A DNA stretch of 11,515 nucleotides from Salpingoeca rosetta (Eukaryota; Opisthokonta; Choanoflagellata; Craspedida; Salpingoecidae): positions 1,322,799 through 1,334,313 of the forward strand of contig NW_004754927.1 in the NCBI RefSeq assembly GCF_000188695.1, read 5' to 3'. The notes below the pieces were generated by a model, which saw nothing but the letters and a program-made list of their open reading frames with translations, did no database searches and was not told the origin of the DNA. This document shows, one piece after another, positions 9,016 to 11,332 of the stretch. A program made the translations under genes and the position numbers. Numbering within the stretch: position 1 is the stretch's first letter; the number at the start of each line of letters is the position of its first letter.

Positions 9016-9753
9016 TCAACTGCATCCGCCTCACACGTTCGCTGTCCTACACGACACGCGATGCACAGCCTTGCTGAAGAGTGTGTGCAGCAGTTGAAGC
9101 AGGGCGAGTCCTTGGAGCAATGCAAGCAGCTCAAGCACAGGGCGCTGGGTCGCATGGCGACTGTCTTGCATGATCGCAAGTCCTCGCTGGGGTACCTTGA
9201 GCAATTGCGGCAGCATTTGTCGCGTCTGCCTTCGATCGACCCCAACACGCGCACGCTGCTTGTGACGGGCTTCCCGAACGTGGGCAAATCGAGCTTTGTC
9301 AACAAGGTGACGCGCGCAGATGTTGAAGTGCAGCCGTACGTATTTACAACCAAGTCCCTCTTCGTCGGACACACAGACTACCAGTATCTTCGCTGGCAGG
9401 TACGCGTCCTCGGCACAAGCATATGCACGTACACGTTACGCAGAAGTTGCGCATACACACGTGCATGACAGATCGTGTAGTAGTGCCACCGTTTACCCGG
9501 TCCATCTCCTGCAAGCACCACTCATTCAAGCTCACACTGCACACAAACGCCCCTGCCATATAGGTGATTGACACACCGGCCATTCTTGACCACCCGCTGG
9601 AGCAGCGCAACACGATTGAGATGCAGGCCATCACGGCGCTTGCGCATCTGCGCGCGTGTGTGCTGTATGTGATGGACCTGAGCCAGCAGTGCGGCTTCAC
9701 TGTGGAGCAGCAGTTTTCCCTCTTTGAGAACATCAAGCCCCTCTTTGCAAAGA

Positions 9754-9788
<35 letters not shown>

Positions 9789-11038
9789 CTGGATACGGTT
9801 GTGACGAGTAGCTGTGACGTTGGTGATTGTCGTCGTACTGCTTCCACTTGCCGCTTGCCATCGCGCTCACGCAACCCCCCACCCCACCCCAACCCAATGT
9901 TTGCATGTTTGCCACGGCAGCCGCTGGCGATTATTGTGAACAAGGCTGACACGATGAAGATTGAGGATGCGCCGACGGAGGTGCAGGAGCGGCTGAAGGC
10001 GTATGAGGCCGAGGGCATCAGCGTGCTGAGCATGAGCACGCTCACGGGGGAGGGCGTGGCGCAGGTCAAGAACGCAGCCTGCGACAAGCTCATGACATAC
10101 CGTATGAAGTCGAAGCTTCAAGCTACACCCACGCCACACACAATCGTTTCCAAACCAAAGACTGCCCCCGCCACAACAACTGCAACAACAGCAACAACCG
10201 CTAATCTCAGCACCAACAACAACCCAAACACTAACAACACCAACAACTACGTGACGTCCACACCCAGCGCGTTCGCTCCGAAAACCGACGATGCAGAACT
10301 CCCACCCTCCTACGCCGCGCCCAGCACAACCGACACCACCACGAGGACCAACATCGGCACCGACGCTGACGACTCGGCTGCAGTCCGTGGTCCGTCCACG
10401 CTGTGCGTCACACTGCACACGCTGCGGGACTGTTTGCGCATCTCCACGCTGTGCACGCTGGCGGCTGTGGGCATCCAGCCGCTGTATCACCACTTTGTGA
10501 CGGGCGTGTGGCCGTGGTCTCAGCGGGCGTGGTTCGTGGCATCGACGATGGCGGTGCACGAGGTGATGTACTACGGCGTCAACTCGGCCTTCCTGCTCAT
10601 GGACCGCTTTGGCATCTGCAGCAAGCACAAGATTGACCGAGGCAGCACGCCAGAGCCATCGCGCGCACTCATTGCCAAGACGCTGCGCAAGAGTGCTGTG
10701 TCGCACTGGGTCATCCAGCCCATCTCGCTGTACGCGCTGTTTCCGCTCTTCCTGCGTATGGGCATGGATGTTGCGGGCCCGCCGGCAGCAGGGGCGCTTG
10801 TGCCGATGATGTGTCGGTTTGGCTTCAGCGTGCTTGTCAACGACGCCTTGTTCTACTGGACGCACCGCCTCCTGCACATGCCGCAGCTGTACGCCCGCTT
10901 CCACAAGCAGCACCACGAATACAAAGGTTCGGCAAAGGCGGTGCAAGGCTGCCCGAAAGCTGCCCCTGTTGTGGTTTTCATGCTTCTACATGTGTGCGTT
11001 TGTGTCTGTCTGTGTGTCTGTGCGTGTGTGTGTGTGTG

Positions 11039-11080
<42 letters not shown>

Positions 11081-11081
11081 A

Positions 11082-11112
<31 letters not shown>

Positions 11113-11332
11113 ACTGTCTGTCTGTCTGTCTGTCTGTCTCTGTCTCTGTGTGTCTGTGTCCGACCTTTGTCTGCGGGAGCTTAACGTTCGTCATCCGGTA
11201 TATTCACATGCGCGTTTCTTTGCCATCTCACCCCACACCGCTGCCCCCTCCCCCAACCCTTGTGCACCGCCAGCCACCACGGGCTTTGCTGCGGAATACG
11301 CGAGCCCCCTGGAGCAGCTACTCAGCAACCAG
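9016..11332 (+). CDS. NOG1: NOG1-type GTPase joined in frame to a membrane fatty acid hydroxylase (partial at both ends)
   Basis: NOG1 (GTPBP4) is a nucleolar GTPase needed for 60S ribosome assembly. Exons: gap edge (9016) to 9399, 9564-9755, 9921-10926 and 11274-11332; all junctions are GT-AG with matching phases, giving about 547 visible residues. The NOG1 part is unmistakable: the helical segment [18 protein letters not shown]1 GFPNVGKSS (9268-9294), switch [17 protein letters not shown]3 DTPA (9570-9581), G4 NKAD (9939-9950) and STLTGEG as the G5 region. G3 normally reads DTPG. NOG1 similarity stops near MKSKLQ (about 10120), before the usual C-terminal NOGCT half. Without a stop the frame then crosses about 90 Thr/Asn/Pro/Ser-rich residues into a hydroxylase domain. 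Everything before residue 9016 is lost in the gap; the first ATG visible in frame, 9061, falls inside the NOG1 helical region and is not the true start. Confidence 0.85.
9756..9786. repeat. (GT)15 array that is itself the splice donor of the NOG1-like gene
   Basis: The exon ends GCAAAGAAG and is followed at once by GTGTGTGT, so the first unit is the donor of intron 9756-9920. Farther on, 9875-9895 is C-rich, giving four G-runs on the opposite strand just before the acceptor region. Confidence 0.92.
10393..11332 (+). CDS. Fatty acid hydroxylase/sterol desaturase domain, 3' half of the same frame (partial)
   Basis: This part would be called a sterol desaturase-type gene if it stood alone. Enzymes of this superfamily are integral ER-membrane di-iron oxygenases that hydroxylate or desaturate sterols and lipids. 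Three hydrophobic blocks are visible, near 10400-10500, 10525-10605 and 10700-10850. They are followed by the first two histidine boxes, HRLLH (in FYWTHRLLH, about 10854-10880) and HKQHH (about 10902-10916). After the 347-bp intron (10927-11273), exon 11274-11332 continues with [18 protein letters not shown], as expected after the second box. The last His box lies beyond the window. Exon 11274-11332 ends at a GTGAGG donor; CGCACAG at 11506-11512 could be the next acceptor, with CTG opening the following exon. There is no stop or obvious gene start between this domain and the NOG1 part, but a separate internal promoter cannot be excluded. Confidence 0.85.
11036..11140. repeat. (TCTG)n tetranucleotide array with two CTAAC interruptions
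   Basis: A TCTG repeat in the hydroxylase intron 10927-11273, preceded by TG/TC-rich sequence from 10990. CTAAC occurs at 11078 and 11110, 32 bases apart, and resembles a branch-point core, though both copies are over 150 bases from the acceptor at 11273. Confidence 0.93.

Follow-up and report, generated by a model that had tools for sequence, protein, structure and literature searches.

The choanoflagellate Salpingoeca rosetta, a unicellular relative of animals, carries a reading frame in which a truncated copy of the gene for the GTPase NOG1 continues directly into a fatty-acid/sterol hydroxylase of the PF04116 family. We consider this locus to be, with a probability of about 0.6, a young chimeric gene that formed by partial tandem duplication and consists of a working hydroxylase and a degenerating N-terminal NOG1 passenger, most likely expressed as one mRNA and one protein. 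The analysed stretch of DNA (11,515 nucleotides; hereafter, the window) corresponds to C7:1322799-1334313 of the 54.4-Mb S. rosetta genome; its features are listed in Table 1.

Table 1. Features of the NOG1-hydroxylase locus (window coordinates)
Feature	Position	Strand	Remarks
Assembly gap	8916..9015	.	100 N; any further NOG1-like exons upstream would lie here; actual size may differ
Exon 1	9061..9399	+	end of NOG1_N (profile 104-160), G1 (GFPNVGKSS) and G2 region
Putatively unconverted part of exon 1	9070..9201	+	37/132 bases differ from NOG1 (28%)
Putative gene-conversion tract A	9202..9399	+	6/198 bases differ: 9204, 9205, 9341, 9342, 9387, 9390
Intron 1	9400..9563	+	blastn shows no similarity to the corresponding NOG1 intron
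Exon 2, NOG1-like part	9564..9755	+	
G3 motif	9570..9581	+	DTPA instead of DTPG, with Ala encoded by 9579-9581; adjacent to, not within, tract B
Putative gene-conversion tract B	9585..10103	+	from within exon 2 across intron 2 into exon 3
Exon 3	9921..10926	+	G4 (NKAD), junction, linker, hydrophobic helices of the hydroxylase, first two His boxes
Duplication breakpoint	10104..10121	+	9/18 mismatches to NOG1, beyond which similarity is no longer clear; ATG at 10104 is in frame
Linker	10104..10388	+	Thr/Asn/Pro-rich, 95 codons, predicted to be disordered
Hydroxylase domain, first part	10389..10926	+	from Gly334 of P0001; HRLLH 10863-10877, HKQHH 10902-10916
Exon 4, hydroxylase	11274..11332	+	19 residues
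Start of next exon	11513..11515	+	CTG = Leu533 of P0001; truncated at the window end; AG at 11511-11512

A single reading frame for NOG1 and a hydroxylase

The four exons are bounded by GT/AG sites and join into one frame of 532 codons. Exon 3, which is 1006 bases long and free of stop codons, leads from NOG1 sequence into the hydroxylase domain, with NKAD (9939-9950) encoded seven codons into the exon and the HKQHH box just before its end. When the spliced frame of the window was compared to Pfam, it matched NOG1 (E = 2.8e-27), MMR_HSR1, the end of NOG1_N and FA_hydroxylase (E = 4e-12), far beyond chance. Given the stop-free exon, the GT/AG-joined frame and the Pfam matches on both sides of the junction, the original prediction that NOG1 and a hydroxylase share one reading frame is confirmed.

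A public S. rosetta gene model of 635 aa (P0001) matches the spliced window protein with 100% identity over the length of the latter. The full record matches the end of NOG1_N (profile positions 104-160), MMR_HSR1, NOG1, FA_hydroxylase (profile positions 4-132; E = 7.5e-22) and, more weakly, further GTPase families; the NCBIfam matches of the fusion are to other GTPases only, all below the cut-off. The fusion is already present in NCBI, UniRef, nr, EukProt and metaclust, and is named 'GTP binding protein 4' by NCBI. These copies probably all descend from a single genome annotation and hence are unlikely to provide independent transcript evidence. According to excerpts from the genome description, the S. 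rosetta gene models were produced with EVM, using ESTs and RNA-seq through PASA, with transcript support reported for 98% of the genes (PMC4054682); this refinement with RNA-seq data favours the reading of the locus as one transcript. A structure model of the whole fusion is of low confidence (mean pLDDT of 63.3), with ten-residue means of 26-51 for residues 41-130 and 55-83 for residues 131-240, and values below 50 for residues 243-329.

The 5' end of the frame abuts an assembly gap that lies upstream of both the NOG1 and the hydroxylase parts and, as originally argued, cannot explain the join. The NOG1-like copy lacks the first ~107 residues of NOG1, and the gap is located where the missing first exons would be. 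Furthermore, an AG dinucleotide at 9067-9068 occupies the precise position of a NOG1 intron end, and the frame stays open over the 45 bases that separate the gap from the annotated ATG (9061), suggesting that more NOG1-like exons could reside in the gap; the gap may also have given rise to a spurious annotated start Met. On the opposite side, inspection by eye revealed a short open stretch on the minus strand (8803-8915), which may encode a protein C-terminus and belong to a gene that enters the gap on this strand; if so, the real gap exceeds 100 bases.

The parent NOG1 gene and the mosaic identity of its copy

A complete 679-aa NOG1 (P0002), including NOGCT, is encoded downstream of the copy on the same strand, ~8.8 kb away in coordinates, of which 5 kb reads N, so that the true distance may differ. 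The original prediction had called for a search for such a second, full-length gene, which does exist. In the genome search, the second NOG1 match is at C7:1341199-1341360 and the sole NOGCT match at C7:1342406-1342561, both on the strand of the fusion, whereas the first exons of the intact gene fall into a stretch of N and are known from the public record P0002. The window is flanked by two N runs of exactly 5000 each (C7:1317799-1322798 and C7:1334314-1339313) which have the appearance of being placed rather than measured; the last part of the hydroxylase gene and the initial exons of NOG1 fall within them. The first intron of the intact gene contains an identical 52-base sequence twice (positions 6698 and 6928 of locus L003), which is not seen in intron 1 of the copy.

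The copy spans NOG1 residues ~110 to ~345, and the fusion is 89% identical to S. rosetta NOG1 across the common part. At the nucleotide level (blastn), the identity to the intact gene amounts to 95.6% for window positions 9554-10115 and to 87.3% for positions 9065-9402. A 246-base piece from the junction has a full match in the genome only at its own locus, with bases 1-195 also matching NOG1. Introns 1 and 2 are retained at the NOG1 positions, which rules out a retrocopy, in line with the original argument from intron retention.

The similarity of the copy to its parent is uneven. The beginning of exon 1 is far more divergent than the rest of the exon (37/132 versus 6/198 differing bases; Fisher p = 3.5e-11), and intron 1 fails to align with intron 1 of NOG1. 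At the start of exon 2 (9564-9587), 6 of the 24 bases differ, the last of them at 9584, and full identity to NOG1 resumes at 9585, four bases after the altered G3 codon. The exon bases of tract B differ at 0/168 positions in 9588-9755 and at 3/183 positions (9975, 10046 and 10048) in 9921-10103, and the two genes do not differ in the final 130 bases of intron 2, where the intron of the copy has a GT run that is longer by 12 bases than that of NOG1. The change in identity is thus sharp and independent of coding constraint. On this evidence, the NOG1 part is best explained as an older duplicate that acquired two gene-conversion tracts, given that selection on the protein cannot hold an intron identical and that one recent duplication cannot leave half of an exon 28% different. 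A plain recent duplication without conversion was rejected because the start of exon 1 and intron 1 have diverged although most of intron 2 is identical. The direction of conversion from NOG1 to the copy appears favoured, albeit not proved, since NOG1 is nearly free of departures from the conserved family positions in tract B (1/35 and 1/14); the reverse, from the copy to NOG1, is not favoured.

The close resemblance of the two loci also bears on the fidelity of the assembly. The presence of a gene ~8.8 kb away to which parts of the copy are 97-100% identical, the gap at 8916-9015 and the hybrid nature of the assembly (454 and Sanger, as stated in excerpts of PMC4054682) could each have contributed to a misjoin of the NOG1 tract to the hydroxylase contig. 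However, the copy clearly represents a locus in its own right that has diverged from NOG1, with an intron 1 and an exon 1 start of its own, scattered substitutions and a different GT run, and the junction itself lies within gapless sequence across which the frame is continuous, so that we regard an assembly artefact as very unlikely.

State of the NOG1-like part

The C-terminal half of NOG1 has been lost, as originally noted: Pfam recognizes no NOGCT in the 635-aa record, the C-terminal tail is missing, and similarity to NOG1 fades at the breakpoint. Towards the N-terminus, only positions 104-160 of the 160-position NOG1_N profile (PF17835) are matched, with the gap upstream and a longer gene possible. 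The copy contains GFPNVGKSS and NKAD, which we take to be the G1 and G4 motifs, respectively. Compared to NOG1/GTPBP4 (nucleolar GTP-binding protein 1; solved chains such as 3jct_b and 6lss_4), it has retained the last part of the N-terminal domain and a G domain with G1, G4 and the G2 region, and aligns to residues 108-352 of chain 6lss_4, but has no NOGCT or C-terminal half and an incomplete N-terminal domain, carries DTPA in place of DTPG and is joined to a membrane enzyme.

The altered G3 residue, Ala119 of P0001, corresponds to Gly226 of NOG1. Among the 119 proteins, of 184, in which the G3 pattern could be read, this residue is Gly in 118 and Ala in the fusion only; most of the 119 are close variants, represented by 16 non-redundant rows. 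The 65 unread proteins comprise 64 hydroxylases and one NOG1 (P0019), which also has Gly. According to excerpts of a study on Nog1 (PMC6968927), the G223A mutation in yeast Nog1 is dominant-negative and lethal when expressed, and G224A in human Nog1 is cited as dominant-negative, presumably through blocked GTP hydrolysis. The S. rosetta copy has the same G3 residue changed to Ala as these mutants, but its change is natural and occurs in a protein devoid of the C-terminal half and of part of the N-terminal domain.

The part of the copy outside the conversion tracts (NOG1 residues 110-153) departs from the family at 12 of the 28 conserved positions, compared to 3 for S. rosetta NOG1 and 2 for the NOG1 of the nearest relative; the conserved positions were derived from 14 rows, namely, the 16 non-redundant ones of the 119 NOG1s minus P0002 and P0003. 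Positions 9070-9201 contain 12.2 synonymous changes per 30.0 sites and 24.8 non-synonymous changes per 102 sites, yielding a pN/pS of ~0.6. Judging from these counts, constraint on the NOG1 part is relaxed outside the putative conversion tracts. Considering the lack of NOGCT and the tail, the incomplete N-terminal domain as sequenced and the Gly-to-Ala change in G3, it appears unlikely that this part could act as NOG1.

The hydroxylase and its unfused relatives

In the 635-aa record, all three His boxes are intact (HRLLH at residue 492, HKQHH at 505 and HDFHH at 588-592), the third being encoded beyond the window end, and the PF04116 score is 78.6 bits compared to the cut-off of 31. The hydroxylase, predicted to be of the membrane di-iron type, is probably the conserved, working part of the fusion. 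A genome search with a related hydroxylase (P0131) as the query, N stretches excluded, found no second, unfused copy and gave only remote matches elsewhere (on C16, with 50% identity over 59 aa, and on C2, with 28%). The former (G000:C16:391280-391435, locus L011) is a distant hydroxylase relative which apparently comprises several exons amid very long GT repeats. Profile searches for solved-structure relatives of the hydroxylase gave none at E<=0.01. A helical, confident model of P0131 (pLDDT 90.3) found none in Foldseek at E<=0.001 (best E = 2.6).

All 57 proteins matched by the hydroxylase part contain PF04116, and none contains a NOG1 domain; the length range of this search (~166-528 aa) is such that the 635-aa fusion would fall outside. 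A search admitting proteins of ~349-1111 aa yielded 10, that is, the fusion record and nine proteins without NOG1 domains, one of them with a cytochrome b5 domain. With the whole fusion as the query, the pairing of NOG1 with PF04116 was found only in the S. rosetta record among the best 120 of 7682 matches. Among the papers listed in literature searches on fusions involving S. rosetta or NOG1, no title or opening of an abstract mentions a NOG1-hydroxylase fusion.

Stand-alone hydroxylases are encoded by Monosiga and several EukProt species. Among the matches listed, the closest hydroxylase is EukProt gene9182-1473_t (65% identity) and the closest other NOG1 is gene9181-1471_t, which is free of PF04116 according to Pfam. 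The consecutive gene numbers, on which the neighbour status is based, suggest that in the nearest relative, probably Barroeca monosierra (PMC12716839), NOG1 and the hydroxylase are probably adjacent, separate genes. The hydroxylase model of the relative (P0130) ends without the third His box and may be misannotated at its 3' end. The S. rosetta hydroxylase is 50-65% identical to the six closest listed of the stand-alone PF04116 proteins (Monosiga brevicollis MONBRDRAFT_27469, EukProt gene9182 and others) and has the same three His boxes as most of them, but differs in ~300-330 extra N-terminal residues and in the lack of a start codon at the usual place.

These comparisons do not uphold the merger of hydroxylase and NOG1 GTPase that the original prediction implied: the NOG1 part stems from a tandem duplication, is truncated, bears a G3 replacement with a disabling effect on Nog1 and is apparently under relaxed constraint, and the hydroxylase occurs on its own elsewhere. 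A selected bifunctional protein, in which a GTP-bound, non-hydrolysing Nog1-like G domain would regulate the hydroxylase or place it on the membrane, is quite improbable. The G1 and G4 motifs are intact and nearly identical to those of NOG1, the His boxes are preserved and the frame is open throughout, all of which would fit such a protein. Yet, the near-identity can be attributed to gene conversion, as most of intron 2 is identical too, the unconverted NOG1 part looks unconstrained and, among the matches listed in the length-limited searches, the domain pair is absent from other proteins.

The linker and the start of translation

The linker differs in composition from the nearby coding sequence. 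ACG accounts for 3 of its 24 Thr codons compared to 14 of 19 in the hydroxylase part and intact-NOG1 stretches pooled (Fisher p = 9e-5), CCG for 1 of its 10 Pro codons compared to 10 of 16 in the hydroxylase part and intact-NOG1 stretches, and its GC3 is 0.64 versus 0.84 for the hydroxylase part. The choice of Asn and Asp codons shows no difference between the linker and the comparison coding sequence. In 5000 first-order Markov simulations (of a stretch starting at 10105, one base late), the linker was open in 18%, so that its openness by itself is weak evidence. It appears plausible that the former 5' leader of the hydroxylase became the linker, and the Thr codons and GC3 indicate that it could still be an untranslated leader.

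The stand-alone relatives, when aligned, start at about residues 305-335 of P0001; the start of P0130 (METTHQGPST), for example, is placed opposite a ten-residue segment of the S. rosetta protein. No in-frame ATG is found in S. rosetta at residues ~305-335, the usual start of the stand-alone proteins. The in-frame ATG codons are at 10092, 10104 and then 10548 (Met387), the last lying beyond the first predicted helix (residues 337-373). Thus, translation has to begin no further downstream than the join, barring an unseen 5' exon that is spliced into the linker; AG sites are present in the linker, with 40-75% pyrimidine over the preceding 20 bases.

The main rival to a single chimeric protein is translation of the hydroxylase alone from the ATG at 10092 or 10104, in which case the NOG1 copy would be a pseudogene with no role beyond that of a leader or promoter, and the public model would have combined two separate units. 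The availability of these in-frame ATGs, the deviant Thr and Pro codons and GC3 of the linker, a pN/pS of ~0.6 that gives no sign of constraint in the unconverted NOG1 part, and the absence of such an extension from the hydroxylases of relatives are all compatible with this scenario. By contrast, the uninterrupted frame, whose GT/AG sites coincide with those of NOG1, speaks against it, as does the need for a promoter within copied NOG1 coding sequence; moreover, a purine at -3 is missing for the ATGs at 10092 and 10104 but present for that at 9061. We therefore view hydroxylase-only translation as possible but rather unlikely.

Origin and significance of the chimeric gene

Partial tandem duplication is a known way in which chimeric genes form. 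At this locus, the parent is intact and adjacent, in the same orientation, and the relatives are unfused; the introns are kept and the breakpoint falls within an exon, as in other chimeras of this kind, from which the S. rosetta gene differs in the putative gene conversion superimposed on the duplication and in that its single transcript is deduced. Under the chimeric-gene reading, a 5' piece of NOG1, including introns and with its 3' breakpoint inside an exon, would have been copied to a site just upstream of the neighbouring hydroxylase gene, such that the NOG1 frame ran through the probable former hydroxylase 5' leader into the hydroxylase coding sequence. Later, sequence of the adjacent intact NOG1 would have replaced portions of the copied part through gene conversion. 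The product would be a G-domain remnant on the N-terminus of a hydroxylase, presumably located in a membrane. The kind of event is known, and the NOG1-hydroxylase pair appears, within the matches listed, only in S. rosetta; the join more likely illustrates the formation of a chimeric gene than a new working enzyme pair.

In this close relative of animals, the parent, the breakpoint, the unfused relatives and the later conversion can all be read at one chimeric gene. The name 'GTP binding protein 4' is misleading, and counts of NOG1 genes or of domain architectures that rely on it go wrong. If translated, the fusion would offer a ready test of a hydrolysis-impaired Nog1 G domain outside the pre-60S particle. 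More speculatively, the natural Gly-to-Ala change in G3 might have been rendered harmless by truncation and attachment to the hydroxylase, or might even be useful in a GTP-loaded, membrane-borne module tying lipid hydroxylation to ribosome assembly, and conversion from the copy to NOG1 could transfer a harmful allele; we deem this set of ideas improbable.

Other features of the window

Upstream of the chimeric gene, the window contains a DNA transposon (6391-8461), presumably of the Tc1/mariner family, with a DDE_3 transposase frame (6592-8280) and perfect 28-base inverted repeats at its ends (6391-6418 and 8434-8461). A copy on C10 encodes a 100% identical protein, suggesting that the transposon moved recently; copies on C4 and C21 have broken frames. 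An apparent multi-exon gene for a serine beta-lactamase-like protein occupies 570-3300 on the minus strand, with introns rich in CA/GT repeats; PF00144 matches the frame 570-851 (E = 3.6e-9), and the rest was delineated by eye. Also by eye, a putative CCCH zinc-finger (CPSF30-like) gene with a Gln/Pro-rich tail was located on the plus strand at 3462-6184.
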